The notes under the pieces are model-generated. The model was not told where the DNA came from and did no database searches. It saw only the letters and a program-made list of their open reading frames with translations. From Halichondria panicea (taxonomy: Eukaryota; Porifera; Demospongiae; Suberitida; Halichondriidae), in contig NC_087393.1 in assembly GCF_963675165.1 (NCBI RefSeq), positions 173,501 through 237,500 of the forward strand: 64,000 bases of DNA, read 5' to 3'. Positions 1-64,000 of this stretch are shown piece by piece. How positions within the stretch are numbered: the first letter of the stretch is position 1; each line of letters starts with the position of its first letter. The position numbers were made by a program, and so were the translations under genes.

Positions 1-2708
1 GGAGTGTGATCTTGTACAGTATTACATACCTCTTGACTCACGACAGTTTCCTCCTTTTCTATCTCCTCATAGGCTCCTCCCCCTATATCCAAAATAGTGC
101 TAGACTGCGTCTGATTGGACGACTGGCGCTCTGTCGGCTGGTACTGAGCAGCCTGGACATTCTGAGCATTCAACTGCATCAGGATCTGAAATACAGAGAC
201 ACAATAAACAACATCTGTTCACTAGCTTCCTGGGTCATAAATATTAGCTATTGGTACAATAATAAGGGGAAACACCTAATCCACATGTACATGCATGTTA
301 CAATATACAAGGCAGATATTACCAAAGCCCAACAAGCAGATACTTAAACAAGATGGCCAAGACTGTAATACCAACCTTGTTGGCCTTGGTCCTGATGGTG
401 GTGTGTGGTGCCTGGGAGAGTGTGGACAACTCCTCCAACACTAGGTCAAGATAGGAGAGCATGTCGGGCAAGTCAGAGCGGGAGAGAGCTTCTATTACAA
501 ACAGTGCCCTCTGTGAGTGTGCATGTGTGTGTGTGTGTGGGTGTGTGTGTGTGGGTGTGTGGGTGTAACAATATATTTAACTTTGCAGGCAATTAAATAA
601 TACTCTCTACCTACATACATCCCAAAAAGTACACTCAAAACCATTTAGCAGCCTTCCCTCACCAGGACAACTTGGTTCTCCGCGGCACCAAGCTTCAGCC
701 GCAAGTACTCCACCACTGACTGACAATCCAATACCCTGCATCGGCTCACAAACTTGACCAACATCTCCCTGGGGGGTGCTGCCTTGATCCCCCCTGGTGC
801 TGTGATATCATCTACTAGTCTCTTCTCCTGCTCAGTGCTAGTGGACTCTAAATCATGGCCACCATTTTGTGGTTCCTCTATCAGTGTGGGTTCATGACGA
901 GGTACACGAACTGTCTCAGGGGAGGAGTCCGCATGATCATCCCAACCACCACCAGCCTTTCCTGTCACATGACCTAGGGGAAGGAAGCCATTACCTAGTA
1001 TATAATTATGTAGCTATAGGCCATTCAATAAAATAATACAGTTTCACTTGTTCTATTGATCCCAACACACACACTCTCAAGGTAGTTCCACCAAAAGGTG
1101 ACAATTATGTATAGCCTTTGTTTTTGTCAAAATTGGTGGATTTCGCCTAAGCACAGAATTTGTATCTAAGCCCATCATTGGAAAGGTCATCCTGGGGCAC
1201 ACTAACCAACCCCCCCCCCCCCTCGGCCTGATAGCGCCCACCTAACCTTTTCCAGTGATAGTATCCCCCTCGGCCTGATAGCGCCCCCCCGTGTGGGGGG
1301 CAGAGGTAGTGTTCTGGAGATGGGGCACAGGGTCCATTGTCACATAGGTGGGGTCATACTGTATTGTCTTGCCAGCACTTGGCACACCAAACAGCTTCTT
1401 CAGTTTAGTAGCTGTGGAGTAAGTGATGGTGTGTGTGTGGGCGGGGAGGTTGAAGGTGATGGTGTGTGTGTGTGGGCGGGGGCTTACATGTAGTCGGCTG
1501 TTGTGATGGGGGTGTGTAGGAGCTGTTTCCAAATCCAGTGATCCGATTGGACGACTCTGAGCTCTGACTCTGACCTGTATGAAAATAATATGTGAAACGT
1601 TCTAGGAAGCTAGTGCAGATTGAAACCATCCATATTAATAACATCACAAAATGCATTTACTGTAGCTATAATTATAAAGACAGTGTAATACAAATTATGC
1701 ACTGTTAACTAGATTAGTGGAACTCTACCAACTGCAGGATGGACACACACACACAGAACTTGCCAGTAGAGTTGGAGTCATTGTAACTGACTGAAGGAGC
1801 TGGTTTCCTCCTCAGCTCAGGAGTGTCTTCATACAGCATGTCCAATATCCTCTATACACAATAAAGGAATGATTACAATAAGGTACTGTAATGTTGGTGT
1901 CACATGTGCAGACTCAAGGTACTGTAATGGTGTCACATGTGCAGACTCAAGGTACTGTAATGGTGTCACATGTGCAGACTCAAGGTACTGTAATGGTGTC
2001 ACATGTGCAGACTCAAGGTACTGTGTCACATGTGCAGACTCACTGAGGCCATGTCCCTGATCCTACCACACTCTGCCACCAAGCTCTCACTCTTGGGTTG
2101 GTGGGGTCGCAGCTCTACACAAGAGGAGGGAAAATAATGGTCATTTAAAGATAATACTTGGAGGCTGATTTATATCGAACCTCTCACACTCTTCACACAC
2201 ATCACACACACCCACTCACTGGATGCTTCGTTGAACGGCTGTGGAACTTTCCTCAGGTTTTGCTTGAACTCGATGTGTCCCTCGTCCAGGACGGCTGTTA
2301 TACAGCGCAGTACTCTCAGCTTGACAAACACATTGTTAGTGGAACACAGCTCGTTGACTAAGTACTGCTGTAGAAACACTCGAGTGGCCGTCGAGTCAAA
2401 GCTCATCTCTGAGGGAGGGCTAAGGAAGGACAACATTTGTGTCTATTATATAATTATTACATGTATTATGTAGTTGTAATATTAAAGCTGACAATATTGC
2501 AGTGTATGTATACTAAGGATACTGATGATGTCCCTGAGGATGAAACCCTCCGGAGCATCTTTAGAGGCAGAAGTGGCAGTTATCAACACTGGCATCTGTA
2601 CAAAGGTGACAAGTGTGTATGAGAGTCAGCCTGTACTGGCTAGCTAGCTAGCTAGCTTACGTGTTGGACATTCGACAGCTTCTGCCCGAGAGATGGTGCT
2701 CTATTCAT
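1..2708 (-). CDS. TEPSIN: Tepsin (AP-4 accessory protein), C-terminal part beyond window
   Basis: Tepsin is an ENTH/VHS-domain accessory protein of the AP-4 coat at the trans-Golgi. Ten exons can be joined in phase: 2661-2708, 2523-2595, 2220-2408, 2044-2114, 1764-1851, 1488-1574, 1247-1411, 663-973, 376-510 and 30-185, giving 441 codons with no stop, so the gene continues past the left edge. The start gives MNRAPSLGQKLSNVQH. The ENTH-like part covers the first three to four exons. The GFGNSSY block and KAGGGWDD match conserved tepsin linker motifs, and the VHS-like second domain includes RVLDCQSVVEYL and RALFVIEAL. Human tepsin is about 525 residues, so a short tail is probably missing. The intron after the fifth exon uses a GC donor (GCAAGT). 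The identity rests on remembered family motifs, not on a search. Confidence 0.88.
1888..2042. repeat. Minisatellite, about 33-base unit, 5 copies, in a tepsin intron
   Basis: Direct repeats built on GGTACTGTAATGGTGTCACA followed by TGTGCAGACTCAA; the last unit is shortened. The array fills most of the intron between the fourth and fifth tepsin exons. It runs into the 5' splice site of exon 4: read on the minus strand the donor is GTGAGTCTGCACATG and each repeat carries TTGAGTCTGCACATG, so the units look like copies of the donor-proximal intron sequence with the GT changed to TT. Confidence 0.9.
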
Positions 2709-2909
2709 TCTCTGTTCCTATGGTGATCTGTACAGACTTTTAGGAAAGCAAATTGGCTAGTCTTGAAGCTTCTTCATAGCCCTTGTGTTGACCTATTTAC
2801 CCGAAAAAACTCTTCAATATTGAAATCAACGGTGTGAGAAATAAAGGGAAGGCTCGTCATTAGAACAAACTGTTTGCTAGTTGAATGGGCGTGGCCTGCA
2901 ATACTCAAA
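2709..2909. promoter_or_regulatory. Shared upstream region, tepsin / LRR gene (head to head)
   Basis: 201 bases separate the start codon of tepsin (minus) from that of the LRR gene (plus). Both 5' UTRs and both core promoters must fit here, so a bidirectional promoter is likely. I see no clear TATA box; a GGGCGTGGCC element lies near 2886. Confidence 0.5.
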
Positions 2910-5335
2910 ATGGTGGAGCATCAGAAAGCTAAAGTTCATGAGCTCGATTTGCACAGGAAAAGGCTTTCCAGAATTGAAGGCTTGGACAAGGTGAGGCTTA
3001 CTAGTGTCAAGATCAATGTCTGAGCTGCTGGGCTTGCAATGACAGTATACAACTCTAGCACTCATATCATATCTCTATCCAGTCGCTAGCTATGCTATGA
3101 CTGTTTGATATTTATTTGTGCAGTTCAAGCACTTGCACTCATTGGATGCTTCTTGCAATAAACTCACAAAGATTCAAGGCTTGGAGCAAAACAAGGTAAA
3201 TTGAAGATCGTATTCATTATTATTAAATATGATATTATGGTTTTGTTTTGATGCAGGAGCTCCGAGAACTGAAGCTCTATGGCAACGAGATCACAGTTAT
3301 GGAGGGGCTGGACAAATTGAGTGACTTGTGTGTTCTACTCTTGCAACACAATAAGATAGCCTCCATAGGTACTCCTCATTTGTGTTAGATGCTCAACTAG
3401 TATAGTATGTAATTACTGATGTTCTGTATGCTTTGTGTACAGGCACTGGTCTGTCCAACCTTAAGAAGTTGAAACAGCTCAGATTGGACCACAACCATCT
3501 AACGAGTGTGTCCCACAGTGATCTGGTGTCATGTGGTAATCATATGACCCACTTGGACCTCAGCCACAATCTCCTGACATCGGTACAAGGGTTAGGGTCT
3601 CTTGGCAACCTGGAGGAGCTCTATCTAGCAGGGAACAAACTGACGTGCCCTCCAGATCTGGCTAGATGTAGAAAAGTGCGTGAATGTCTCAATATTCAGT
3701 AATAGTAGATCTCTATGATTTCTTCAGGTTACTTTAGCATGCATTTACTGTCTCTACAGCTCACAGAATTGAACCTATCAGACAACCCGCTGACACTGGG
3801 CTCCCTCTCATCATCACTCAAGCCACTCAACCAGCTCAAGGTATTCCATCGGTGACTATAGTGTATAGCCTTTGTAGCTCAGTTAGGTGTGCAAGCACTT
3901 GTTATATCATACACACATGTCCAACCAATGGCTTAATACACACATGTCCAACCAACGGCTTAATACACACAAGTTATAGACTCTAATTGTGGGCATTCGG
4001 ATTCTCCCATTATTAATTAGACTTTCTGTTATCTAGGTCCTTTGTCTGGATCGGATAGCCCTCTGTGACCTCTCCCCACTGCCCAAGCTAGTCTCCCTGG
4101 ACACACTGCACTTGTCAGGTAATAGCCTGGACACACTCGCTCCATTGGTCAAGCTCTACCCTAGCCTGGAGGTGCTGGATGTGGGGGATAACTGCCTAGC
4201 AACAGTGGAGGCTGTGGGGGGTCTTCAGCAGCTGGCCAGTCTCTCTGAGATAATGCTGGAGGGCAACTCACTCTGTCAGCATTTAAATGAGTAAGTTACA
4301 ATTTTAAATGGTGGGAGGGTTGTAGTTGAACAGCCATAACTTCAGTACCGTTGATCCGATGTCAAAAATTTTATGATTATCTGAAAGCTTAGAAAGTGAC
4401 CTTTCAAATTATATGTTTAAATCCAAAATTTATATCGGGGCCCTAATTTGTCATTTTTCGGCCTTGGACCATGGGCTATTATCCATGGTGTGGCCAAATT
4501 TGACAATACTTTTATCTCTCAAATATGAATTTTGATGACACGATTTGAAAGGTCTTTTTCTAAGCTTTCAGAAAATCATAAAATTGTTGAAATTGGATCC
4601 ACGGAATTCAAGTTATAGCAGCTGAAAGAATCCCCGAACCATTGAATAATGTTGTGTTGTATGTGTGTTTGATATTGTTGTACTGTTTCTTCCAGTTATA
4701 GGAAAGATGTACACAGTGTTCTGCAAAGATTGGAAATGATCGATGGGGTAAGCCCATGCATACGTGGACACTGACTCTACCTAACTAACTTTGACTTTAT
4801 TTGCTAACACCAATCCCCCCCCCCCCCCCCACACACACACACACACACACACACACTACACACAGGTTGCTGTATCGCTACTCACGCCCACTCTACCACA
4901 CCCCCTCCAAATGCGACCATTGACACCATCTAGTATAGGCCCCACCCTTCGTCAGATGGAACGGCACTTTCTGGAGGCGGAGCTTCAGTTGCAGGGACTG
5001 GAGGGAGAGATGACCGCGCGCTTTGACCTCACTCGGGCTAAGATGGAGGCAACAATGAGAGAAAATGAAGTTAGGCTACGAAACGATGGAGTGGCATCAC
5101 CAAAGAAACGGTATGAGAATGAACAGCCCCCGAATGGGAATAGAGCTTTGGACGTACCAACAAGTGAAGGAGACAGTGACGTAGTGCAGTCATCCAGACC
5201 CTCTACAAGGTGTGGGAGGTGAGGAGATTATGTTATTGTGTATTGTATTGTATTGTGTCCCTCCCCCCTCTCAGCCGAGCCAAGTTGAGTGAGGCACTTG
5301 CCCTGGCCGCCCTCTACCCTGATCACATGACCTAG
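2910..5335 (+). CDS. SDS22-type leucine-rich repeat protein with C-terminal helix
   Basis: Nine exons join in phase: 2910-2990, 3124-3195, 3257-3368, 3443-3675, 3760-3840, 4037-4290, 4696-4747, 4866-5218 and 5275-5335, giving 432 residues. Roughly residues 10-290 are tandem leucine-rich repeats of the SDS22 pattern (for example LRELKLYGNEITVMEGLDKL, LKQLRLDHNHLTSV, LEELYLAGNKL). They end in a cap like that of LRR proteins (YRKDVHSVLQRLEMIDG). After this comes a predicted coiled-coil stretch rich in E, R and M around QMERHFLEAELQLQGLEGEM, then a polar tail ending in LALAALYPDHMT. The LRR fold is certain; the orthologue is not. It resembles ciliary or phosphatase-scaffold LRR proteins, but I cannot assign a name. 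Confidence 0.85.
4322..4648. mobile_element. Near-palindromic repeat element, full copy
   Basis: Intronic element whose two ends are inverted repeats: the left end reads GCCATAACTTCAGTACCG and the right end, reverse-complemented, reads GCTATAACTTGAATTCCG. Inner inverted blocks TGAAAGCTTAGAAA and TTTCTAAGCTTTCAG follow, and the centre is GGCCTTGGACCATGGGCT. No coding capacity. It looks like a MITE or foldback element. The same element recurs across the window. Confidence 0.75.
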
Positions 5336-6073: not shown

Positions 6074-6884
6074 CTGCACAAGAAATTAATGATAGGCAAA
6101 ATTTTTTGTATTGAATTGAAAAAATAGCCACCACTTGCTGGGTACATCCCTATAACAGTTTAGCTGTTCCCTAAATGCTCATAACACACCCACACACGCA
6201 CGCACACACACCCCACCCCCACACTCTCATACTTACGAGTCCTCCTCCTCCTCTGTGTTGTCAAATGAGTCAGTGTCCTCAGAGCCTCCTCCATCATCAC
6301 TGACTGCCCCCTCCCAACTATGCTTGGCCGTGGGAGGAGGGGGAACATACTCACTCTACAGGGGCAAGGGTTATGTAGTTAATACAGTCTAAATAATGTA
6401 AAATATTTAGCCTTTTAATTACATAATTATACTATTCCCACCTTGGCCTTGATAAAAGCTGCAGCTGCTGTGTTGTCCAGCCCGAGTGCGAGACTAACGA
6501 AGGCCACGTTAGCGATGCCTTTCTCCAACCACTTGTTGAGCTCCTCCTTGGTGATAGTGCGAATCATGAGGTCATGGGAGATCCCCCATTCCTGGGAGGA
6601 GAAAGAGGGTCAAAGGTTAGGGGACTATGAGATGTTACTCTAAGAATCTGATTAAGACGACACCAGTCATAGTTTACAGGACAGATCATTCAGGGGGTTG
6701 TCTAATAAGAGTTTAGAGCTGTCACAGTACTGCATGGTGGCCATGGTAACTACTGTACTACCTCTGCCAGGTTTTCAATGGTTAGGAAGAGTTCAGTGAA
6801 TACTCTAATAATCTCAGGAGAGAGCAACTGCTGACCCTTCGTCTTCTCCTCTGTGTGTGTGTGTGATGTGCGTGCGTGTGTGTG

Positions 6885-6933
<49 letters not shown>

Positions 6934-9586
6934 GGGGGGGGGGGTATACAAAGGAAAAGGGAATTGTATCCACTGTAGCTCAAACGCTCACTTAGTATTC
7001 TACTAGTTTGTTAAGACTAAAACCTCACTGTGTACATACACACTGTGGTCCCTCAGTGCACACCATCATGCTAGCACTGTGTACATACACACTGTGGTCC
7101 CTCAGTGCACACCATCATGCTAGCACTGTGTACATACACACTGTGGTCCCTCAGTGCACACCATCATGCTAGCACTGTGTACATACACACTGTGGTCCCT
7201 CAGTGCACACCATCATGCTAGCACTGTGTACATACACACTGTGGTCCAGTGCACACCATCATGCTAGCACTGTGTACATACACACTGTGGTCCAGTGCAC
7301 ACCATCATGCTAGCACTGTGTACATACACACTGTGGTCCCTCAGTGCACACCATCATGCTAGCACTGTGTACATACACACTGTGGTCCAGTGCACACCAT
7401 CATGCTAGCACTGTGTACATACACACTGTGGTCCCCTCAGTGCACACTATCATGCTAGCACTGTGTACATACACACTGTGGTCCCTCAGTGCACACCATC
7501 ATGCTAGCACTGTGTACATACACACTGTGGTCCCCTCAGTGCACACTATCATGCTAGCTGTAAGACCCACCATAGGTCTTGATGAGAGTGGTGTACAGCT
7601 GCCAGAGAGGCTTGAGTGCAGACAGCTCCAGTCGGTCCTTAGAGACCACCACTGTGTCACCTCCCTCACTCCTACCAGAGCTCTGTAGTCCCACTAATCT
7701 CATGAGCAGCTTGACTACCTTCAGACGTTGGGCTCCAGTGTACTTGCAAGCCACGACTATGAGGAGGGGCCACAGACGAGAGAGGGGGAGGGAGGGGGCA
7801 GGGATAGGGGCGGAGTCTCGGCACAGTAACTGCTCTAGGATGGAGTGGCCAGTGTCAAACCTGAGGACATGATGAGTGACATTCTTAAATTTCGTCTGCA
7901 GTATTCTAACTAATAAGCTACCGTCTAAAAAATATGCAACACGTAATAATTTTGCTGCCTTTAATTAGAACAGTACGATACTCACCTTCCCATCTGTGTG
8001 CCATTGACTGTGAAGGTACAGGTAGTGTTTTTGTTGCTAGGGCCAACCATATCCACCTCGTAGTACAGTGTGTCTCCAGGGATCACATGACTCTGACGAT
8101 CCTCAGGGTCAAAGGTCGTAGAGGTGTGGCTCTTGGCATTCTGTGATAGATTGATTGATGATGAGAACTTGAGAGAGCCGTTGATTGGATGGCTGAAAAG
8201 AACGACAGGAAGATAAAATATATTTCGCAGATATGCAAAATCTATATCAAAACTTACAATGTAATATTGAGGTTGGCAGCATTAGGGATATTGATCTTTC
8301 CCTGTATAAAGAGATTAAAGGAATTTAATGCATTATAATTATGAAGGAAGATCCCACAAAATATGATATGAAGTGTCGGCACTTTAATTACAATGTACAA
8401 AACAGCCATACAATACACTCAACCATACACTACACTGGTAATAGTCCACAGGACAGCCTTAGCTAGGTCTAGTATAATATCCGCCCACTCACTGTTTCCT
8501 TCATGTTGCTGTCCTGGGTGTACTTGATGACTCGTGTTTCCTTGCCAACGGACACCTCACTCATACACTGTACAGCTGTCAGCACTAGACTAATAAGCTC
8601 TGTTGGCTCAGTACATGACAGCACTGATGACAGAATCTGAGGAGAAAATAGTACAAACTATATGTACACAAAACAATGAATGGCGCTAAATGGAAGAAAT
8701 ATCCAAATGTTCGTATAATTAGAGTGTCGCCTTAATACGGTACACGCATCATACAATTGCCCTGCCCACTCCACCACACACACACACACACCTCCTCTCC
8801 CTCCTGTTTGACGAGGAGGTCCAGTAGACAGAAGTATTGCGGCATATCCGTACAGCCGAGAGAGGAGGTGCTCAGTCTCATACCAGTGTCCGCCCACTTT
8901 ACGAGTAGTCGTGACAACACACGTCTCGCTTGTAGCACTGCAATGGCATAGAACGTCTTGTACATGGTGCTTCTCGAGGGCGGCTTGTTCTTGAGGGAGG
9001 TCAACTCATCAGATAGTAGGGAGTAAGATTCTTGTCTAGCAGCCGAGGAATTCTTGGGTTCCTAGATAAGTGGGAGGAGGGTAATAACATGTCTACTGTA
9101 TTAGGAGACACACCTCTTCTTTGGAGTCTGACTTCAGCAGGTTCTTAGTTTTCTTGAAGATGCTCTGATCTTCAGCAATGGCCTCCACTGATCTGCAGTG
9201 ACAGAGCAACAAAGATAGAATACTATACACAGATTACTGTGCATGTATGAGCAAGTGCAGCTATTGTACACAGACTGCTACTGGTACAGTTGTACATGTA
9301 TGTGCTTACTTGATGTCAATCTCCACGGGGACCAGTCTGGTGACACCCACATCCTCAGTGCTCTGCTGGACACTCTCAACAGTCACACTGTCTGAAACCT
9401 TCTTTATCTCCCTGTGTGTGTGGTGTGTGTGTGTGTGTGGTGTGTGTGTGTGTGTGTGTGGGTGTGTGTGTGTGTGGTGTGTGTGTGTGTGGTGTGGGTG
9501 TGATGTTATATATAATACTCACCATTTTTTAGCAGCTTCTAGTATTTCATCGGAAGGTTTGAACTCTCCTTCACTATAGCTGCACA

Positions 9587-9619
<33 letters not shown>

Positions 9620-9632
9620 TGTGTGTGTGTGC

Positions 9633-9667
<35 letters not shown>

Positions 9668-11152
9668 CGTGCGTGTGTGTGTGGGAGAATCATGTGAGCA
9701 ACTCAACTCTTTAACCACACAATCATTGAAATTGGACCACCAGATCTTAAGTTATGGCTATAGAAAAGTGTTGGTCCTCACCTCTGCTCAGTGATGGCCA
9801 TGAACCTATCCATGTTACCATCCACACTCTCATGCATGGCCCGCAGCACTGTCATGGGACACATGAACACCTCGGACAGCGTCTGGGGGGTGGGGTAGTG
9901 GGTGTGGTCAATACATATATGTATCGCACAAACTGACAATAATATGATTAGCCAAATGACACTGTATGAAGGACAGTTTACTGACCACACCCACCTGTAG
10001 CATGGAGCACACCTCCTCCGATAGACCCTCTAAAATCTTGGCATTATTTTTGGTCTCATCATCATTGTCCTCATCATCTTCATCTTTATCATCGCTGGCG
10101 GGCTCATCCTTGTCTTCTTTGCTGCCTTCAGTTGCAGCAGCGGCAGTGGGCTCTTCCTCAGTAGTCTCATCAGAGTCGGTGTCTTGTACAGCTCCAGCTG
10201 GCTGGTACATGCTCATCCCCAACACCTGGCAACCATGGCAACCATTACACAGCTATGACACACGTGTCACCATATACACATGTACTGGGGGTTATGCAGA
10301 AATCAAAATAATGTCCTAAAATGTCTGTATAGCGCAACATTTAGTTCAATCGTACACGAAATTAGGTGAATGAATTACTTATAGCTAACGGAAGACACGG
10401 TGTCATTGACCAAATAGCGCCACATTTATTCAACACACAAGAGGAGAAAATTATGTGGGTCTAAAATTTTACGCTATATGGTAATTAATAAATGCACAAA
10501 TAGCAGTACTTATTCTCATACCTCTAGCTCAGCTAGTCTCCACTTGAGACTGAAGTTGGTTGGCCTTGAGGCTAGTTTCATGATAGCTGGTACTATTCCC
10601 ATGTCAACCAGCATCTTGACCACACCCTCTGACTCGGGAGACTATAAACAACGACAGAAAGCCAGTAAAAACGTCAACAGCGTATAATAATTGTAGCTAG
10701 CATACCTGGAGTATGATGTAGAGAGCCTTGAGGGACAGCCCCAGTATCCAAACATTCTCCACACATCGTTCAGTGTCTACAGAATCGTGTACCTCGTTAA
10801 GATAAGCACGCTGTTATTGATATAGAGCATTCGCATGTACACACACACCTGGCTTGACAGACTTGAGGGCAGCTTTTACTAGAGGTAGGATGGTGTCCAT
10901 CTTAGAGGTGTCGATGCAATCAGGAGCAGACTCTTCAATCTCATAATCGGACAACTTGGCCTATGGAGGAACAATATTCACCATTTCACGAAAAACCTGA
11001 TTAGAGACATTTCCAAACTCACCACAATCTTCTCTCTTGTCTTGAGATTGACGGCACAGCCACGCCCACTTTCCTCTACCTTGAGCAGTACCACGGGGGA
11101 CGGAAGATCACCTGATCCAGTGTATGTGAGCAGACTACCAGCCCTCGGCACC

Positions 11153-11187
<35 letters not shown>

Positions 11188-11200
11188 TGCGCGCGCGCGC

Positions 11201-11231
<31 letters not shown>

Positions 11232-12908
11232 GTATGATTGATGATCAATACGAACAAAAAACACAAATGTTTCAACATAAGATATGTCTACAGGCTATAT
11301 TGTACCGAGGAACCTGGGGAATTCCCCATGTACAGGCCACACCCACTCACTTTGGGAAATCCAGCCAGTATGAGTAGACTGAACATTGAGCTGAGATCCA
11401 TGTTCTCTAGGCCTATACCAAGGGTGGTTGCTATGGTAGCAGAGAGAGCAGGACGCCAGGGGAGTGGCCGAGACAGCAAGAGCAGGCAAGACTCAGCGGT
11501 TGATGCACCAGTAAAGTCAGACCTAGTGGGAGGGGCAACATAACGTGCAATACTAGAGATGTAGCAATAATTATATGCACAAATGTAAGTATAATTATGT
11601 ACAGCCTGTTTTTCTCTACAAATTAATTTGGAATTATGCACGACATCAATTGATGCATCACAATTTAACTGGCCACACCCACTGGCCACACCCACCTTTC
11701 CAGAGAAGATGCTCCACAGTTGAAGAAGAACTGAACAGTCTTTAGTCCGGCACATCCAGTCTCTAACTGAAGACTGTGGGGGGTCTGACCCTCAGCTATC
11801 TCTACGGCACGGTCTGCCACCTGTGGGTTGAGGCGGGCAAAGTACTGGGCCGCTACCAGGAGGGCTTGTAGTCGCAGGGGGGAGGTCACCTCACAACAGC
11901 TGTGGAGGGTGTGTGTGTGTGTGTGTGTGTGTGTGGGGGGGGTGTGGGTGAGCTTACCTTGACAGCTGTAGCAGTGATGGTAGAAGTTCCTCCGCTAAGA
12001 ACACCTCAATATCCTGCTTGTGTTGAATCCACGCAGACAACTGGACAAATACAAAATCAACAATTAGAACAAAAACATAACACTGCATAATACATGCACT
12101 GTACACAACCACACCCACTACTCCCGTTTATTCAATGGTTCGGGGATTCTTTTAGCTGCCATAACTTGAATTCCGTGGATTGATTTTCTTAACTCACTCT
12201 ACTAACCACACCCACTACTATATTAACCACACCCACTATACATGTACGTACATTGAACTCCTTGGGTAGTACGGCTGTGAGCAGCCCTAAGATACTGTCC
12301 ATGTAACAAGTGGAGAAGTTCCTCTCATTGAAGCCAATATTAGAGTCCATGTCCTGTGGTCTTTTGCTAGCCTTCACGATCGGACTCTCCTCCTCTTCTT
12401 CTTTGCTATCTCCAGTGGGCGTGACAACACTGGTAGTGATATCCTCTATAGTGAGTGTGGCCTCTGCTGTAGTGGGTGTGGCCTCTGATGGAACAGAGAA
12501 GTCAGTTTCATCTACAGATGTCCCCTCTTTTGATTGGTCAATAGAAGTGCCCTCTTTTGATTGGTCGACTGGGCTGGCTTGTTCTGATTGGTCTGCTCCC
12601 TCTTGCTTCGATTCTTCTTTCGTTTTTTCCTCCTCCTCAATTTTCTTATCAGCTTTCCTCTTGGAAGCTGTAGGTAGCAATGTCAGCAAAAAATATATAC
12701 GTTAGGGAACGTAGATATATAATTTGTACTCTGACCTTGGTCATGCTGATCGAGTACGGCTGCTCGTAGTGACACAGAGAGATGCTTGAGACAGCTGTAC
12801 TTGATCCTGCTCGCCTGTTGTAAGTAGTCAAGCTCTAGTACTGTGCGTGTGTGTGTGTGGGTGTGTGTGTGGTGTGTGTGTGGGTGTGTGTGTGTGTGTG
12901 TGTGTGGA

Positions 12909-12939
<31 letters not shown>

Positions 12940-13031
12940 TGTGGTGTGTGTGTGTGTGTGTGTGTGGTGTGTGTGTGTGTGTGTGTGGATGTGTGTGTGT
13001 GTGGGTGTGTGTGTGCGTGGTGTGTGTGTGG

Positions 13032-13062
<31 letters not shown>

Positions 13063-14808
13063 TGTGTGTGTGTGTGGTGTGTGGGTGTGTGTTTTTAGTA
13101 TGCTTGAATTCTACTCAAGATAATTTAATTTCACTAAAAAGCAAAACTAAGAGAAGCAATCTGTAGCTCTTGACAATGATAATTATGCTGATGGGGGCAC
13201 AGCCTTTGTACAATATGACACCACACCCCCTCCACCACGCCCCCCTCACCTGGCTTGTTGACGGTGTTGGCCATGCCCAGACACAGAGAGGAGAAGAGCA
13301 TCCAGCAGTGTTGATGGACGTAGCCACGTACCTGACTAGCTGGGGTGCTCTTAAACAAGTAACCATCTTGGTACTTGAACCCAGTGACCTCTCCTAGACA
13401 ATGGGGGGGGGGGGGCAGATTGTAGAGAGTGAAGAATAGAATATTGTAATGTATATAAAAATGGCACAGTAACTAAGGACATTCACCACAGTAACTAAGG
13501 ACATCACCACGCAACGCAGTACCTTTATCACTGCTCCAGTATCGTCCCCTCTGCCCACTAGGAGTCATCTCAGTGTAGGGGAACACTGTCCACGAGTCAT
13601 CCCTCCTGTGCCGTCACATGACATGCTAGTATGATCACATGACTACTATAGGGACTTACCCTGTTGCTTGCTCTTTCCTGAAACAGCCGATACAGAGATC
13701 GTAATCACAGCGTGTCTCACTGTGGAAGCGATGTCCCATCACAGCCATGTGACAAATATCACAACCATACCGCCTACAAAAGAAACACAGACGTATAATA
13801 TAGACTATAGACAATGATATGACATCATCGGACAATGTTATGTACAAGAGGAGGTGTCAAAGTATTGTAACACACTTACCCTAAAGACATGAACTTGTGA
13901 TCGGCACTTTTCTCTCTCCCATCTTCATCTGTAGGCAGGCAGGCAGAATACATCTTAAACATTCAATAAGTACAGAGCACAATACAGAGCTTAAGGAGCA
14001 GTATACTAACATGACTTGTAGCCCTCATTACCAGTGTGGATTGTTAGCTACAGTGTGTGTGTGTGTGTGTACATACTGTCAAAGCAGGAGGTGCAAAGGT
14101 CATAGTCCTCCTCCACCTCAGTGTCACGGAACCAACGCCCACGGATGGTTGAGGAACAATTGTCACAGTTCATCGAGATACGGTCGCTATACAGGGACAT
14201 TGCTACCAGGAATATGTGTGTATCCTGTGTGTGTGTGTGGGGGGGGGGGGTTATGCAGGTCATGTGACACAATTCTACCAACTTCAACACTTGCACATAC
14301 AGATACAAATGAACTGATCGTCATAGCAACACAAGTCATCATACACGTTCTATTCACATCCGTATCAAAGTAATCATACCAGAGATCAGTAGTACATGTA
14401 CCCAGCCCACCCTCCTGGACCAAGTGCAAAGCTCCGCCCCCTACCATGAGACAGACGGAGGGTTAGTGTACCTTGAGATGCTCCATACAATAAGGCATCT
14501 CTAACATCTCCTTCCAGCTCTGAGAAGAAGGGAGGTCATTGAACAACTGGAGCATCTTCATGTACACCTCGTACTTCTCCAACATCTCGTCTTCTCCCTC
14601 GAACTTCTCCATTGGCTCACGATCACCCGTCACTGAGTATTCTGTGAGGGGGCGGGAAGTGGGTGTGGTTAATATACAGCTGTACATGTACTTCCTGAAC
14701 ACAATAACCGTACAATACCTGTACATAGGTATCTCAGGTACTAGCACACCCACACCCACACACACCCACACCCACCCACACACACACACACCCACACCCA
14801 CACACACC

Positions 14809-14865
<57 letters not shown>

Positions 14866-17800
14866 GCACACACACACCAACGGCATTGCTGAACAGGAAC
14901 TCTGGCAGCTGTAGCTCGGAGAGGAGGGCATGGTCATAGTCCTGCCAGTCAAAATCCAACAGGTGACACACAAACAGGAGGACCAAAGAACGAGAGAAAG
15001 AATGCTCCCTGAGACGATATAATTATAAGAAATGCTCTCATAATATTATTATAGCGTGTATTTCTACTCTAGTGCATTTACTTTGAGGAAGGTTTCTTGA
15101 AAGAGTTGATTGTTTCGACTAGCTTAGTGAGGAGTCGACGATACGATTTGCGCACCTGGTTCTCCAGCTCTAGACCACACCCATCCAGCTTGGCCGCATA
15201 ATGCCTGAGGTAATAATAAGAGTACAGAGTTCAAGTTAAGCCACACCTACAAACAAGCATTGCATTATATACGTACCTTGGAAATAACTGTTGTTTTGAG
15301 AGCACTTGTTGTAACAGGACAAGACCTGACAGCTGTTGAGTGTGTGTGTGTGTGTGTGGGTGTGTGTGTGTGTGGGTGGGTGTGTGTGTGTGTGGGGGTG
15401 AGTAAGAGATATGAAGGCCACATAACTTTACCTCGAACAAATTTCCCATTCCCATGACTGTAACAACTTCAGCTAGGAAAGCGTAAGTCTCTGCAACAGA
15501 GCGCGCCACTTTCTCTCTCTGCTTAAGAAGAGCTTGTACACGATCCACTGATAAGGCTTCGTTCTTGACAAAGTTCAGAATGAGGTCAAATGATGGATAC
15601 TTCTCCGACACCTTCTCCTCGGAACTAGTCAGCTGCAGGCAGGACATCAACATAAGCACATCATTGGAAAGGTAATTCTGAGAGCTATTGAATGCATCAA
15701 TTAGTTTTGAAATTGAACACAAAATACGGGCTCTGAAACGCCACTGAATATATACATGTTCTAGTACACTACTGAATATCACTGAATACTATTGGATACT
15801 ATTGGATACTATTGGATACTACTGAATATCACTGGATACTATTGGATACTACTGGATACTAACGTGCTGCTTGAGCACCCCCACAGTGGAGACAGCAGTG
15901 GTGACCTTCTGCCACTTGAGGCTCTTCCTAGCCCACTGTGGCCGACTGCCGCTAGTGGACAGTGGGTTCTTACGACGAGAGAGCCCAGAGAACTTGAGCA
16001 GGAACATTGCCTTCTCGAAGCACGCTGTCACTGTGAGGTGTGTGTGGGGTGTGTGATGTGTGATGTGTGTGAGTGTGTGAGGTGTGAGGTATGTGTACAA
16101 TAAAGTTAATTGTACTGCTGATTACCAGGGGCATCCTCATCGATCTTTTCCTTCTCTTTGTTTGCCTCCTCTTCTTTCCCCTCCTCGTTGCTCTGCATCA
16201 CTTGCTGTCGTGCCTCCACCTGTAGCCACGCCCACATATGGATTAGGCCACACCTACCAGGCCACACTCACTCACCAGATCTCTCCTCATAGCCTCGGCA
16301 GCTTTGAAAGCCGTGAGTACACCGGGCGTTACTTTGGGCGGATTCTCTTCGGATACTGAGTGGTGTAGCGCATCACATGACAGTCACATGATATCACATG
16401 ACTCACCAAATGGGAGGAGCTCCTCTCGGATGTCCTGTGAATGCCATATAAGGGCAGCAAACACGGAGTTGACTGCCTTGTCCACTGTGGGTCCACCGTA
16501 GAAGTGACCTTTAGTGTCCGCACGACAGCTGTACATTTGGAGAAGGAGCATTTAAACACATCACAGGAGCCATTTTCATGGTCTACTTGAAGTTGTGTAG
16601 GCAATGCTAGTAAGTACAGTCACAATACAAGGCCCATACGGTACTACAAGCTGTACACAGATCACAATCAGATTAAGAAGGAATCTCACAGTTCCAGTAG
16701 TTGTAGCCCCACCCCCTCCGGACCGTTAGCAAGGTCTTGCAGCATAGTGCACAGTGCTGAGTCAGCAGGACTGGCAGCCTGGGGGGGGGGGGAGAATACA
16801 CATTCACTGGGCATTCAAAATGGATACACAATCCTAATTAACTCAATGCTTAATAGCCCACGAAAAATTGAAATATTTGGGCCCGAAATGAATCATTGAT
16901 CTACACACACGGCTCTATCAGGGAGCTACTACATGTACATGCACAGGTTAGTTGTGACATTGGAGAATCCCCACTCAAGTTACAGTGATGTCAAGTTACG
17001 GGCTCTTAAAGAGAGCTATCACAGTTCAGAGCGACTCCTAAACTGCTGTTACTACAGCAACTCACGTGGAACTCTGACAGGGACCGTGTCAGCTTGCCCA
17101 CCATGTAGCCGCCTCGAAACAATGTCTTCCAAAGCTCACTATCCACTAACTTCTCCTCTTCCTTCTCTTGGTCCGTCTTGTCGGGCGATGTGATTGGCCG
17201 CTCAGTCCTCTTCTTGCCGAGGGTGGTGGAGGAGAGTAGGCCAAGGAGACTAGATAGTGAGATCTGTGCGTCTAGTATCCAGTGCATAGACGGAGGGGAC
17301 ACACCGTACGCTTTCAGCTGGGTCAGAATAAATATAAACCATTAATAGCCTTGTATTAACCTTGAGTCTTGTTGGCTATTCGGCTTCCCTTAATGTACTT
17401 AGTGTATAGAACTGAATTTAAATCATATCACATGACATCAGTATATGTCACATGACCACCATGTGCTCACCGTAAACTTGTATCCCCACTCGTTGTTGCT
17501 GCCATCAGAGTGAAACTTAAATGTTAGTTTCTGACCTTTGAACTCCGCCTTCTTGGTCCACCTATCTGACCCACACTCTCCATCGAACTTAGTCTTTGAT
17601 CCTTGAGTGTCAGTGAACTCCAGGTAGTCGTATCTAAAGAGGGGGCGGGGCTTCAGTAAATAAAGGGGCGTGGCTTCATTAAAGCAACACCAACTGTACA
17701 ATACAGTGTTTCAGACCAGTAAGGGAATTAAAGGCGCAATACTCCACCAATTAAAATGGCATAAAAATAAGTAAACATGAAAAAATTTTTGTACATATAA

Positions 17801-19784: not shown

Positions 19785-19822
<38 letters not shown>

Positions 19823-20506
19823 TATAATTGTAGGGGCTGACTCACTTCAGAGTGAGGGGAATGTAGATGTTCCATATCTTCTCCAGAGACAAGTTGTCCA
19901 CTGCCAAGTGGACCTCCTGTATTAGGTCAGTGCAGAAATCAATACACATGTACAATGTACACATACACATAGTGAGTTATACACTAAGCTTGCATGTACA
20001 TGTACATGTACACTGTAGCCCCATCACCCCTCCCGCCCCCTCACTCACTCCCACTAGGGTGGGGTCCAGAGCAGCTGCCTTCCTGCGCAGCTGGAGGAAG
20101 TGCAGGTCAGCCAGCAAGGTTGCTAGAAAACCAAGTACTCGGATCAAGACCACACCCCCTAAGACACACGGCTCGTCAGTCAGAGGAGCTATGGAATCCT
20201 ACACAAGATAGAGGGAAATACCATATCACATACTGTATATTTTTTTTTCAAAAACAGGCCCAAACATCACTATCTTTAAGCTTTCAGAAAATCTAAAAAT
20301 TAATATTATTGGATCAACTGAACTAAAGTTATGGCCGTTCCAAGATGCTTTAACACTACACCCACTCACCAGCTTCTCGAGGAAGGAGTCGATGCCAGGT
20401 CCGTCCGAGAGAATCTTGTGTCCACACACCCTCACACAATGCACGCCCACACGCTCCACATCCTCCTTGTCCGAGGCCAGGAACTTGAGCAGCACATACT
20501 GCGTGC

Positions 20507-20553
<47 letters not shown>

Positions 20554-21465: not shown

Positions 21466-21526
<61 letters not shown>

Positions 21527-25650: not shown

Positions 25651-25691
<41 letters not shown>

Positions 25692-26103
25692 TGGGTGCGT
25701 GGATCGTGTGATGTGATGTCGTTACAAATTGTGTCTAGCTATTGAACCATTCAGCTATAATTATATCACCAGTCTTACCACTTGTGTATCAGCTTCAAGT
25801 AGTCAGTGTATATCTCGCAGCCTCAGTCTCAAGTATTCGCAATCGCTAACACAGTACAGCAGCTTTCCAGCTTTTAATAGAGCTTGAAGAAGTGGGCGTG
25901 ACCCTCTGTGTCTGTGAGGGCCACGTGATATTATTTTTCAGCTGTTTACGCGCTGCATGCAACTGCGGCAAGTGCAGCACTCACTATCGCTGTCTATCAG
26001 TGTATGAATAATGGTGATTTGAAACAACTGGGGGAGTAGTATCACTAATAGCATCCTATAATTTGTAGAAGATATATCCAAAATAGCTCTCCATTTCATT
26101 ATT
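25613..26103. promoter_or_regulatory. Divergent upstream region, ZZEF1 / methyltransferase
   Basis: 491 bases between opposing start codons. It contains a (TG)n tract at about 25656-25690; in ZZEF1 sense this is (CA)n ending in TGCAG at 25651, which could be the acceptor of a 5' UTR intron. The half next to the methyltransferase is AT-rich. Confidence 0.45.
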
Positions 26104-42680: not shown

Positions 42681-47723
<5,043 letters not shown>

Positions 47724-48118: not shown

Positions 48119-48294
48119 CTATTTAACTCTGCGTCCTCTCCAGTAAACATGGCGTTGGTCAGTCCTTGGTAATATGCTCCTGGCTGATCGTCTCACTTTC
48201 TTTCTCTCTGCTCGGTGCTCTTTTTGTTGCTTTTGCTTCTCATCTTCGCTACCATCCTTCTGTGTGGTGTGTGTGATGTGTGATGTGTGTGTGG

Positions 48295-48325
<31 letters not shown>

Positions 48326-51300
48326 TGTGTGGTGTGTGCTGTACAGTGCACGGTTGCATGTAGGTATCACATACACACTACTATTGTAACAACAGTGTTC
48401 CTTGAATGAACTCCTCACCTTTGCCAGTGTGATGGTGACCTCTCTGCTACCAAGCACTGAACCTGTCTGTCTCACATTCTTCAACTCTGACACACCCTCT
48501 GACACTAAACGCTGGCCCAGAGATGACCTGAGGGCATGTAATACCATAACAATTAAACATTATCTATTCATTGTATACTCACTTTGAGTGCTTGCTTTTA
48601 GATGCACGATCTTCAGTCTGGGATAATGGTACCATCTGCACAGTTTTCTTGGTTTCCGTGGTTGCAATGGCCCGAGGTCGGTCAGCTGCTCTCCGTGCTT
48701 CTTCCCAGTCTTCCTCTGAGCTACTATCCTCGTCACTCACACGCCCCTCTAACTCCTAGGAGCAACGGAGCAATCTCATTGGGCGTAAATCAGTTGCTAT
48801 AATTAGCGCCTTACCATTTCCTCGTGTTCCTCTTTTATAAAGGTCTTCTTTTTGTTCTTTACTCTCTCCCTATGAGCCATGAGTGGATGAAGTAACTGGA
48901 ATTCTTCACTCTCAACATCCGCTTCAAAGTCAGGGTTTGAGAATAAGGAGGAGAATCGCTCGTCTCCCGTTGGATTGGCCACGTCTGTATTAGTGGGTGT
49001 GGCTTTGTCCGAGAGCATTTTTTCAGCCAACAGTCGATTTACTTTGGGAAGTTTCTGTAGGGAATACATATATGTGCATGAGAGGTCACCAAAGGTCATA
49101 GTACAGTTATTGTTGCACATGAGAGGTCACCAAAGGTCATAGTACAGCTATTGTTGATTGCCAACCTTTTGTCGTATTCTGTTGGCTCTTGCTTCTTCTA
49201 GTCGTTTTTTTATCCTCTCTTTTCTGTACTCATCGTATGCAAACGGTTGAGCAATGGCCTTTGCCTGTGAGAAAAATACAATATTAAATGTGTTTATGTA
49301 TTACAATCAGTCATGCACACATCTGCTTATGGTGTGTGGTGTTGGTAGGGGATTATGCAAAGGAGGAAGGGAGCAGGAAACAGTGTTTGAACACAGAACA
49401 CATACAAGAGGTGAGGTCTATTCTACTGAGAAATGTGGCTTTCTGTGTGGAAGCACTGTCAGTCATGCCACAAGTATGTCAACTGCTAATTGTAGATTGT
49501 ACAAAGTGTTGTTTTGATGGAGGGAATTTTTGCACAGGAAACCAGTAACAGAGCCAAACACCTTGTCTAGCTGCACCAGCCAAATCAATAACATCCTTAA
49601 CAGACTATAAATATATACATTCCTTGTAAGGAATGACGTGAGTATAGGATTTATGTTACCTTGTGATAGAGTTTCATGTCCATGAAGAAGCCATGCATGT
49701 ACGCTCGGAGGAGGTTTGAGCCAATCAGATGTGAGAGACCTATTGTAGAGTGGGTGGGGTATATACACACATCATGTGACTATCATGTGATCCGCTCACC
49801 TAGAGTATCGAGGTCCTGACGTGTAACAAACTTGTAGTCCTCGTATACAGTTGGTTCAGGGTTCTCCTCGAGCTCCTCCGTCAGATTATCCAGGAAAGAG
49901 CACCACTTGGGGGCGGGGCCTATAGCCTGGGGGGGGGGGTAAGGAGAGGGGATGCTTCAATATTACACATGTGTATAGCTGGTTCTATTTCTAGGAAGAA
50001 ATTCCTAAAAAACTGATTGGTTTGTCCAAATTCCAAATGAACATGCACTCACGGGAATATAGTAGCTCAGCACACGAGTGTCCTCTGTTGCCATGATCAC
50101 CAGTCCAGAGTCAGGGAGGTGACAAAGATCATTAATGGAGTTCTCAGGCTCAACAGAAGTAAATGCTGAGCCCTGTGACAAGCAAGTACAGTAAGCAAGT
50201 CAGTAAGCAAGTCAGTAAGCAAGTAGTATTCAGGTTCATTCAATAAGGAAAAAGTAGCAGTTTTATTCCTTTTTTAACCCAATTTCGGCACAATATCACA
50301 CATGTATGTAACTACCTCAATGCATAATTCTACTGTCCATTCTACTATAGTAACAGTAACTATTGCAAGGGCAACCTTTACCAGTTGGTATTTATTCTTG
50401 CACAATAATTATTATCATCAGTATTGAATGATTGCACGCTGTCACGTACATCTTTCTCATGCCATATCTTGAGTATCTTGCTATCAGCCGAGAGCACAAG
50501 CCCCTCCTTCTTCTGGAAGGCAATGGAGTGGATGGGAAAGCCATAGTAGTGATCCTTGACAGTGTGTGGGCGGGGGGAGCGTAGATCATAGAGCAACACT
50601 TGTCCAGCTGATGTCCCCACGGCGAGATTGAGTGAGTCTTTATAACAGAGGGCTGTCACACTTGGAGGGGAGTCACTGGGAGGGGGTGGGGACTGATGTG
50701 ACCACACCCACTTGTCAGTATATAACTTACGTGTCTCCCTCTTCTACTGGTAGGGCCACCTCCCCCACACACAGTCCAGAGCGCGGGTCCCAGCACTCAA
50801 CCGTACCCTGTGTGTGTGTGTGTGTACTTGTGAGCTATATGTAGCGTACGTTTGATTGAACTCTGACCTCTTCTGTTCCTGCAGTGAACAACTGATGCTC
50901 TGAGTTGAATGCACACGATGTACAACCACTACAGGGACAGAATGACGTAATCCATTAGGCACTAAAGGCACACTACAAACACCCCACACACCCACACACA
51001 CACACAACTAGCTGACCTTGACTTAGACTTGAGAGGAGTAAGAAAGCGGCCTTGCTCGAGATTTAGCCGATATATGTCTGAACTGGGCATGGGAATTGAT
51101 ATATGCATACTCATTACATACACAGTCCAATACCCACCAATCAGAAGTAATATAGAGATCACATGACTGGCGGTGATAGTCCAGGTCTCGTCCAGACCTC
51201 GGTATACGGGTACGATAGTAGAAGCCATACTACACCAGAGGGACGGAGGGTATGATGAGTTATCAACAGCACAAGGCAGCTCTCACCTGAGCATGGAACT

Positions 51301-59701: not shown

Positions 59702-62131
59702 TCAGTCTATTCTCTCCACGCGTCCGATGACCTTCCCCTGAAACAATGGCAGTGGTAGGGCATCTTGTGAGCATTCTTCCAAGAACTCCCCCACATCTTC
59801 CAAATAGCTTTTAAAGAAATATCTGCATAGGGGATCAAAGAGAGCTCATAAAGTGCATGTCTAGCAGCTATGAAATAGCATCCTGGTCAAGTTACAAAAC
59901 AGAATGCCCCAATAGTTAAGAGTAAGATAAGGAAGACCCACTTCAAAGGCACCTATAGACTACAGTGGTGTAGTTATCAGCTATCAAGTGACACCATCAC
60001 AGCACACACCACAGGAAAGGGTGGACAATTGATCACCAAATAACATAACACAGAACACAATTTCAAGCTATCCACACCTTACTATAATACTAGCTAAAAA
60101 ATAAACACCTAACTACCTCATATTAACAAAAAGATGCCATAGACTTTAGGGAACCAAACACACTAGCTGCTTCACCACTGACACACAACACACACACACA
60201 CACACCTGAAGTTTCCTGGTCTCTTTAAGACCTTCTCCTTGAAGTCTGCCAGAGTGATGTTTGTGCCAGGCACTCGCATTGCAAATGGTGTTGGGATCTG
60301 GTCCAAGTGGTAGACAACCAGCGTTTGTCCTTTGGGTGGGGCCACTACAGAGTTAGGGGGAGGGGCAACGTGATGGTGTTCCACAATTGGAGAGGGGGCC
60401 ATCTGTGACGCATGTTGCTGTCTGCTGGAGCGTCTCGGAGCTGTCAGTTGTCGTCTGTGATACCTGTGAGTGTGTGTGTGGAGTGTGGAGTGTGAGAGTG
60501 TGTGGAGTGTGATGAGTGTGTAGCTATCAACAAATCTAGTGGAGAGTTAATTATTGGTAACCTAAGTAGCCAATTGGTCTACACACAAAACCACTAGCAT
60601 TGGCTGGGTGTCTTGGCATGCTGTTAGTGTACACAACTTGTTGTGGCTTAGAGAATGGGATGAGTTTAGTTAGACTAGCAGCCTCTGCATATCAAAGAAT
60701 ATAACATACCTCAAATGGTTGGATTCATCATTATCTGAGTAGGTGGGTCTGTGAGAAGAGCGACGAGGAATAAATAAATCTGAAGCACTTGAATGGCTAG
60801 TCATCGTGAAGCAAGATGAGCTGTCATCGCTTGAATATGCCTCAGGGAAGTTGCCGTACGGTCTTCCTTTAGCGTGTCTGTCTGCTGGTGGGTGAGATCG
60901 TATACTGGGTACTAGTGGATTGAGGGACTCGGGGTGTGGGGAGGCGTGCATTAAAGTCATAGCAGCTGCTCGTGCATCTCGCTCCCTCTCAGAGGTGCGG
61001 TCGCGTAAACTGTCCATTTGGTAGACATACTGGGTGAGTCGATCATGTTTGGGAGTCACAAGACCACTGGTTGCCATAGTATCGCCAACGCCAGAATCAG
61101 AGGTGGTAGATAGCACTGAGCTGGCACCAGATGTCCGACTGAAACTAGCCTCGACCTGAAATCATATGACAGAAACAGGTATGACAGGAATGGCATTCTT
61201 GAACTATAGCTGTACACACACGTATGCTAAGGTTTTAATTAACACAATATAACATATTGCAGTTTTCACAGCACATACCTTGTTGGTGATCTCCATATCT
61301 TTTAGTGCTGCCTGGACTTCACACAGCGCTAAGTTGTTGATATGAAGAAGGTCTTTGGGAGGGGATACCGGCTTGGGGAATTGAAGTTGAAGTTGATTGG
61401 CTGGTTCACGATCTCCATTGACAACAGTGTCATATTGCAGATATTTGATGGTCTCTGGAAGGTCATACCACTCGAGCGCCTGCACAGAACAATGGGAAAC
61501 AGGTCATGAGTGCTACTAAAGCTACAAAGCGTAGACAGTTAGGTGCCAAGTAGAGGTGGTCTGAAAGAGATCAAAGAGTTTGCTATTCTCAAAGGATGTG
61601 TGGGGGTGGTGGCAACAGAGCTTCAAAGGGACGCAGTTTGATAACACATGTTTCAAACACCATACTACTACAATCACAGTGCATACCATTATATCATCGT
61701 AGTTCATTTTCTGTTGCCTTGCTCTGTCTCTCACACGCTGGGTCATGCCGTCTCTGTCCATGATGACAGCCCGCAGTCTGTCTACCACAAGGGCTGCAAA
61801 TTTCTCATCAGTAACAGGCTTGTCTTTAGTTACATAGGTCGAGCTGTGGGGACCTCTCCGGTGGCTACGAGGCTGTGTGTGTGTGTGTTGTGTGTGTGTT
61901 GTAAAGCGTCTGCAAATGAATTCTGTGCATAGTTGACTCAAAATACAGTCTAACTTAATGACATTCACATGAGACTGTGGATAGCAATATGGAAGCATAG
62001 CAGAGGAGACAACGTTTACATGGAAGTTAATGTTATTACCTTGTGGTCTTCACAGTCTGAGATAGCATTCCTGGAGGTTGGAAATGGTCTGGATAACTGC
62101 TGCATCACATAACTTCTTGGTCCCAGGTCAC

Positions 62132-62200
<69 letters not shown>

Positions 62201-63139: not shown

Positions 63140-63911
63140 GGCTAGCTCTTCTGTTAGTTTTGATTCTTGAGACACACAATGGAGACTAGCTCTACGCTAA
63201 GTACTAAACTTCAGACTTGGCTCAACTAAGCAGTTATGAGCGTTTGCACTGTATAATATTCAATGAGGGAAATTTCACTTTGAGTAGAGAAGCCCCTAGT
63301 TAATTAATGAGCTGCGGTCAGTGTGGGAAACATCAAAGGAAGCCAACTTGTAATTAATGCCTTTGAGCAATGTTCAGAGTTGACAATATAGAGCCCACAC
63401 TATTTATATGCATGAGAATTTACAGTTAGTGGTATGCACACTTATTCAAGCATTCCCAACCACTGCACATGTGGCCACTCAATAGTCTAGCATCAAACAG
63501 ATTTGGTGCAAACACACTCCCAATTATTAGCCAACTGTGAGGTATCACTTTATGTGAAGTAAAGCCATATCCTACACCTGTTAATGGGCCACAAAGAAGG
63601 CAAAAGGTAGCTGTTAATTCTGTTAGCTTTAACTCATGCAAATACCAATGCTAATACAGCAAGCTTGTTTACAGTACCTAGTACAGTATGAAAACTTCAA
63701 AGACAATCTGGCTTATTCACAGACAAGCACCATTGATGTGCACATGTTCAACAATCATAATGAATACAGAAATGTTGGGGAGGTTTAACCACAAATATGA
63801 TTAAAGAGTGTCTTATAATTATATTAAGTATAGAAAATGCATTGATATACAGAGAAAAATTAATATCTGTGTTCAGTTTCTGAAAAAAACAACGACAAGT
63901 TCGAAAATTGT
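63140..63911. other. Axin upstream / intergenic region
   Basis: About 770 bases holding the Axin 5' UTR and promoter and the 3' end of the next minus-strand gene. It is AT-rich. TAATTAATTAATGAGC near 63299 and TATTTATATGCATG near 63402 are the only notable AT motifs. No supported open frame. Confidence 0.4.
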
Positions 63912-64000
63912 TCAATGCCTGTGAGCTTGCTTGCACTTCTCCAGTTCTATGGACAGCTCCCTGACCTTCTGGGTCCAGTAGCCACTGCTCTGTTGCAGCT
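63912..64000 (-). CDS. C-terminal end of an unknown coiled-coil-like protein (partial)
   Basis: On the minus strand a frame enters from the right edge and reads QQSSGYWTQKVRELSIELEK, then CKQAHRH and a stop at 63912. The heptad-like spacing of hydrophobic residues and high charge suggest a coiled coil. With only 28 codons and no upstream context, this could be a real last exon or chance. Confidence 0.35.
   Translation of the reverse strand, partial: LQQSSGYWTQKVRELSIELEKCKQAHRH

Follow-up and report, generated by a model that had tools for sequence, protein, structure and literature searches.

The window analysed here, a stretch of 64,000 nucleotides (nt), spans positions 173501–237500 of contig NC_087393.1 (contig C17) of the sponge Halichondria panicea, whose assembly totals 131 Mb in 39 contigs and carries intron-bearing genes of animal type, as judged by gene models and homology matches. 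Genes recognised in the window include those for tepsin, an LRR protein, ZZEF1-like and synaptojanin-like proteins, a PH/SH3 protein (‘SKAP-like’), NOL10, PGAP1 and Axin. Several hold introns ending in a run of CA dinucleotides that leads into the AG of the acceptor (3′ splice site), and a mirror image, TG runs at the donor (5′ splice site), is found in the same stretch. In the stretches of the genome that were sampled, this polarity at intron ends is genuine and unusual. A preliminary description of the window, made from its letters, saw half of it, the CA-ended acceptors, and missed the mirror at donors.

All splice junctions considered below are predictions from gene models built on genome sequence alone. 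They were obtained with a purpose-written two-strand gene finder, trained on its own sequence, which combines coding statistics by codon position with reading-frame continuity. Donors are scored from −3 to +6, acceptors only by the AG and positions −3 and +1. No splice signal is scored upstream of −3, but the non-coding look of an intron still counts and position −3 favours CAG; since both features influence the calls, swap and planting controls were run. The sample of 314 kb comprises 16 stretches (the window, ten stretches of 20 kb and five of 10 kb) and yielded 777 introns, 436 of them with log-odds >5 for both flanking exons. The test set consists of the 356 strong introns, defined by this exon threshold and a length of at least 60 nt. 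A tract is a run of at least four CA or TG units in the last 40 nt (acceptor) or first 40 nt (donor) of an intron. These two segments overlap in 46 of the 356 introns (60–83 nt), among which are 2 of the 32 introns with a CA tract at the acceptor and 3 of the 27 with a TG tract at the donor. The null expectation was derived by rotating the interior of each intron (1000 rotations, and a second series of 500 evaluated also for the window and the rest separately).

About one strong intron in 11 (32 of 356) carries a CA tract at its acceptor and only 6 carry a TG tract there, while TG tracts are found at about one donor in 13 (27 of 356) and CA tracts at 13 (Fisher p = 3.8e-6 for repeat type against intron end). 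The same asymmetry is seen in the window alone (103 introns; acceptors 15 CA and 3 TG, donors 5 CA and 12 TG; p = 0.002) and outside it (253 introns; acceptors 17 CA and 3 TG, donors 8 CA and 15 TG; p = 0.0016). Over 1000 rotations, CA counts at acceptors averaged 17.0 with a maximum of 26, against the 32 observed, and TG counts at donors averaged 10.8 with a maximum of 21, against 27. In the second series, the acceptor count was never reached, either for the 103 introns of the window (15 observed, null 8.6) or for the 253 beyond it (17 observed, null 8.4), and none of 500 rotations attained the donor count in either part. TG at acceptors is low (6 against a null of 10.7, with 17 of 500 rotations equally low), and CA at donors shows no rise (13 against 16.2 in the 356 introns, 500 rotations). 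Relative to the repeats that these introns contain, the enrichment is thus about 2-fold, and it extends beyond the window. Within the window, mid-intron CA density (0.073) comes near the acceptor value (0.084); when intron 44942–46404, which holds a CA array of ~630 bases, is left aside, the values become 0.037 and 0.082, and outside the window they are 0.010 and 0.035. The finding that the preliminary description said would overturn it, CA tracts no commoner before acceptors than within introns, was not obtained in the 314-kb sample.

An artefact of gene calling, by which CA tracts that look non-coding and end in CAG attract exon starts, is a highly improbable source of the pattern. A small pull does exist, as (CA)10G planted in tract-free introns was called as a false acceptor 4 times in 74, 3 in 72 and 0 in 73 (7 of 219 in total), against 0 of 228 for (TG)10AG. 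However, when intron interiors were swapped for other intron sequence, 26, 25 and 26 of the 32 tract-bearing acceptors were recovered in three runs, against 50, 54 and 54 of 60 tract-free ones, and homologous proteins or domains span three of the junctions (510, 50807 and 48259).

Twelve of the 13 acceptors named in the preliminary description were called by this gene finder, in which no splice signal beyond −3 is scored, which confirms its observation of CA-ended acceptors. Ten calls are exact (28737, 4866, 46405, 62133, 61872, 60463, 50807, 48259, 510 and 22242), 9412 is moved to 9411 and ~19735 to 19744; only 59054, proposed for the last exon of PGAP1, is absent from the gene models. Both flanking exons exceed log-odds 5 for nine of the 12, and the upstream exon is weak at 4866 (log-odds 2), 9411 (4) and 50807 (4). 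Homology supports three of these acceptors, and the other nine are placed by coding statistics and frame. Acceptor 510 corresponds to residue 317 of the predicted protein, within a tepsin TVHS-like Pfam match (residues 261–365); the alignment to human NOL10 spans both 50807 and 48259, with a one-residue gap next to 48259; 28737 lies upstream of the aligned SAC domain of the synaptojanin-like protein and is placed by coding statistics and frame. CA acceptors, attributed to nine or more genes in the preliminary description, occur in eight of the nine gene models of the window, or seven without 54182 in the PGAP1 model, a doubtful call (exon log-odds 2, poor homology match there); some models seem to fuse neighbouring genes. 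Across the 314 kb, 51 gene models have three or more introns, and 22 of these show at least one CA-ended acceptor, weak calls included. For annotators, masking of simple repeats could hide real acceptors in this genome.

The composition of the 32 CA-ended introns was compared with that of the 322 whose last 60 nt are free of CA runs; the remaining two of the 356 belong to neither group. In the 30 nt before position −3, the pyrimidine share is much the same (0.583 against 0.592 in the others), whereas the U share is 0.079 against 0.359 and the longest pyrimidine run averages 3.8 against 5.8. The AG-free zone has a median of 70 nt in CA-ended introns and 28 nt in the others. A search for branch points by comparison of 5-mers returned C-rich and some T-rich words and no clear branch motif, and a conventional branch point is hard to place in the predicted intron 11900–11957, since it is nearly all poly-C and CA repeat. 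Poly-C of at least five residues was also noted in the last 80 nt of 7 of the 32 CA-ended introns and 38 of the 322 others, in several cases directly upstream of the CA tract. Introns that end in CA repeats and are poor in U lend themselves to the questions of which features a 3′ splice site requires and how rapidly mutating repeats can persist in splice sites and leave genes intact.

The excess of CA is concentrated close to the acceptor. In the 218 introns of at least 150 nt, runs of at least three units number 17, 22 and 22 in successive bins within ~40 nt of the AG (null 7.7, 7.9 and 10.9), and further away they are near the null (15 and 17 against 11.1 and 15.9). Removal of the 39 introns ending in CACAG leaves 1, 11, 8, 8 and 11 against 4.4, 4.8, 6.9, 6.9 and 9.8, and most of the excess is lost. 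GT runs of at least three units, counted from the donor, number 20, 12, 17, 9 and 19 (null 6.1, 4.6, 8.3, 7.9 and 14.9). Among the 292 tract-free introns, CACAG makes up 16.8% of CAG ends but 7.8% of interior CAG pentamers. Once two units are present, CA runs reach at least five units about as often at acceptors (12 of 61) as in intron interiors (76 of 593; p = 0.16). An excess linked to CACAG, together with acceptor runs that lengthen like interior ones, fits seeding by the acceptor motif followed by slippage into the intron. As a separate observation, sense-strand interior runs of at least five units in the introns of the 314 kb are 20 of 717 for GT and 76 of 593 for CA.

On balance, the tracts are probably microsatellites seeded at splice-site motifs, pinned there by selection on the AG or GT and tolerated, rather than a new splicing signal. 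The seeds are at hand, as ordinary acceptors often end in CACAG and some donors read GTGTGT. Replication slippage would extend them away from the exon into the intron, and splice-site selection would keep the AG (or GT) edge in place. A CA run offers no AG to compete with the true acceptor, and such tracts could be tolerated for this reason; they also retain the usual pyrimidine share, which may contribute to their survival. Long sense-strand TG runs are retained mainly near donors. Recognition of the 3′ splice site would then probably proceed via the AG, the long AG-free zone and the remaining pyrimidines, and require no special CA signal. Tolerance was one of two options offered in the preliminary description and is borne out by tracts that abut acceptors in frame-consistent models and by the recovery of most such acceptors after the interior swap.

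Several results weigh against this account of seeding and tolerance. Donor GT runs reach at least five units more often than interior ones (9 of 41 against 20 of 717; p = 7e-6), a difference that is not expected from plain seeding and is due chiefly to introns of the window (6 of 9 against 8 of 204; elsewhere 3 of 32 against 12 of 513, p = 0.05). Selection against long UG tracts in transcripts is one possible reason for this. Without the CACAG introns, the bin 12–22 nt from the AG is still above the null (11 against 4.8), and some tracts thus stand apart from the AG, for which interruptions within tracts may account. Interior runs were moreover counted singly, so that one interrupted tract enters the interior total several times. 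In favour of the account, genome-wide motif counts on both strands give 4314 occurrences of (CA)8G against 1022 of its mirror G(AC)8, and 2978 of (CA)8T against 3448 of its mirror. However, the mirror control is not neutral, as CACAG already exceeds GACAC at two units (933 against 498 in 314 kb, 1.87x), so that only ~2.3x of the 4.2x ratio for (CA)8G lies beyond the baseline. Of the 33 matches to (CA)5G in the 314 kb, 17 lie exactly at a predicted acceptor. Genome-wide, the donor pattern AG(GT)7G shows no excess (760 against 1004 for its mirror), and the gene models are thus the sole source of the donor-side pattern.

Table 1. Repeat tracts at predicted splice sites of the window; positions are those of the window, and ‘mirror’ marks GT repeats at donors.
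Feature	Positions	Strand	Remark
CA tract before acceptor 510 (tepsin)	511..566	-	junction inside TVHS-like Pfam match
Tepsin intron of 76 nt containing two short CA runs; acceptor 1411	1412..1487	-	
CA tract, poly-C ahead, before acceptor 4866 (LRR gene)	4830..4865	+	upstream exon log-odds 2
CA tract before acceptor 6850 (ZZEF1-like)	6851..6931	-	
CA tract before acceptor 9411 (ZZEF1-like)	9412..9502	-	upstream exon log-odds 4
CA tract 13 nt upstream of acceptor 9573 (ZZEF1-like)	9587..9683	-	downstream exon weak
CA tract before acceptor 11151 (ZZEF1-like)	11152..11231	-	
58-nt predicted intron, almost wholly poly-C and CA repeat, acceptor 11899	11900..11957	-	<60 nt, outside test set
CA tract before acceptor 12834 (ZZEF1-like)	12835..13092	-	
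ZZEF1-like intron of 98 nt containing poly-C and a CA run; acceptor 14202	14203..14300	-	upstream exon weak
CA tract upstream of acceptor 15325	15340..15394	-	downstream exon weak
Interrupted CA-rich tract before acceptor 16030	16031..16087	-	
CA tract before acceptor 19744	19745..19821	-	~19735 in the preliminary description
CA tract before acceptor 20498	20499..20560	-	
CA tract before acceptor 22242	22243..22257	-	
CA tract ~25 nt upstream of acceptor 25630	25655..25701	-	outside strong set
CA tract before acceptor 28737 (synaptojanin-like)	28710..28736	+	
CA tract before acceptor 46405 (PH/SH3 protein, ‘SKAP-like’)	46392..46404	+	
CA tract before acceptor 48259 (NOL10)	48260..48338	-	junction inside NOL10 alignment
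CA tract before acceptor 50807 (NOL10)	50808..50824	-	inside NOL10 alignment; upstream exon weak by coding score
Interrupted CA tract before acceptor 60463 (Axin)	60464..60521	-	
CA tract before acceptor 61872 (Axin)	61873..61902	-	
Pure CA tract of 62 bases ahead of acceptor 62133 (Axin)	62134..62196	-	
Mirror: donor begins GTGTGTGTG, intron 8637–8791	8775..8791	-	
Mirror: GT-repeat donor, intron 14642–14877	14745..14877	-	
Mirror: GTGAGT then GT repeat, intron 21395–21525	21426..21525	-	
Mirror: GT-repeat donor, intron 59823–60205 (Axin)	60188..60205	-	

Repeats of another kind, minisatellite arrays, are present in the window at 7026–7558 (period 49), 51408–51600 (16), 57947–58398 (42) and 59140–59434 (44). 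As regards the assembly, contig C1 (18.1 Mb) is twice the size of C2 (8.6 Mb), and the 20 kb sampled from it include 5000 N. The sole match to COX1 reported in the assembly (G000:C1:5280527-5280718) is a fragment of 64 positions with two internal TGA, as expected from a nuclear mitochondrial copy.

The main competitor of tolerated microsatellites is a functional CA signal, in which an hnRNP L-type protein bound to the 3′ tract would promote or regulate recruitment of U2AF and U2 in place of a U-rich tract, with tract length tuning exon inclusion. The genome encodes an hnRNP L orthologue, a gene model on contig C15 whose best PDB matches are hnRNP L (1e-40) and PTB (4e-22), and regulation by CA tracts is therefore possible. 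Family-model matches for PTB/hnRNP L cluster at two loci, one on C4 and one on C15, and three weak matches lie elsewhere; exons were scored apart, and every match stayed below the curated cut-off. The C4 gene model, judged from its sequence, is provisionally taken for PTB. The poverty of CA-ended acceptors in U fits such a signal, as do the preference of hnRNP L for repeated CA (PMC3823766) and the regulation of mammalian splicing by a CA-rich hnRNP L site between the pyrimidine tract and the AG (PMC4320613). Against it stands the run-length comparison, since acceptor runs do not lengthen clearly more than interior ones; the TG mirror at donors demands a second explanation. Besides its role near acceptors, hnRNP L also acts at donors, but CA is not raised there. 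A mechanism based on hnRNP L is thus possible, though no measurement demands it, and is considered rather unlikely as the cause of the pattern. Two proposals of the preliminary description, namely that CA tracts are used as splice signals and that their length could tune splicing, gain no support from the same run-length result, and an hnRNP L/CA model does not account for the donor mirror. The interpretation given there is, overall, partly supported. A broader version, in which (CA)n before the AG would stand in generally for the U-rich polypyrimidine tract in this lineage, appears quite improbable. An hnRNP L-type factor would read the tract, (UG)n would form the corresponding context at donors, and repeat length would adjust splicing in thousands of introns.

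A purifying filter on the sense strand offers another route to asymmetry, in that tracts would arise anywhere and TG would be removed near acceptors and inside introns, where it could act as cryptic GT donors or bind UG-binding repressors of the TDP-43/CELF type. The scarcity of long interior GT runs relative to CA runs and the low TG count near acceptors agree with this, and in mammals TDP-43 acts via UG-rich tracts, which drive repression of CFTR exon 9 and also mark cryptic exons (PMC5446763). A search of the genome for the TDP-43 N-terminal domain gave no match, but it had no positive control and absence is not implied. A filter alone, however, cannot lift CA at acceptors over the mid-intron level, yet such a rise is seen outside the window, and on these grounds it is an unlikely explanation. 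Even less is to be said for paired repeats of the fish and lamprey type, in which the GT tract at the donor would pair with the AC tract at the acceptor of one intron and replace the need for U2AF2. The polarity is the same, with TG toward the 5′ end and CA toward the 3′ end of introns, and at a spacing of 80–110 nt the order TG..CA exceeds CA..TG genome-wide (385 against 182), but these matches overlap and the order test was set aside as uninformative, the 100 CA..TG places listed being mostly repeat clusters or overlapping matches. Co-occurrence within one intron is at chance, with 4 against 6.1 expected and 2 against 2.3 (confidence interval of the odds ratio 0.09–3.72) of 310 introns, and 8 against 7.0 and 2 against 2.5 of 254; the odds ratios over the four settings are 0.58, 1.21, 0.84 and 0.78, with intervals up to 3.7 that allow a modest excess. 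The pairing mechanism is accordingly unsupported, and as a general cause of the pattern it is disfavoured to the point of being very improbable.

Among known systems, the closest in layout are these paired introns. Lin et al. (Genome Res. 2016) are said to have described GT repeats by the 5′ splice site and AC repeats by the 3′ splice site. Fish and lamprey possess a class of introns with complementary AC- and GT-rich tracts in the same intron (PMC7404189). The sponge resembles them in having GT near donors and AC near acceptors as populations (27 against 13 and 32 against 6, of 356), but differs in that both tracts share one intron no more than chance would have it. Among the titles and abstract openings of the open-licence papers listed, no invertebrate report of a CA-acceptor/TG-donor polarity was recognised, which does not prove that there is none. 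The mammalian elements CaRRE1/REPA provide a second likeness, as a CA-rich sequence lies right before the AG and an hnRNP L orthologue is encoded here. In their layout, CA stands between a pyrimidine tract and the AG; here, CA before the AG is clear, and the 30 nt measured show the low U share (0.079) and short pyrimidine runs (mean 3.8) given above. A difference lies in extent, since the mammalian CaRRE1 (PMC4320613), an established regulatory site rich in CA just upstream of the AG, is a single element, set against 32 of 356 strong predicted introns in the sponge, with little U left. Intronic CA repeats are splicing regulators acting through hnRNP L in mammals, and the motif and the candidate protein are alike in the two cases. 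What stands out in Halichondria panicea is position, with CA close to the acceptor and mirrored by TG at donors.

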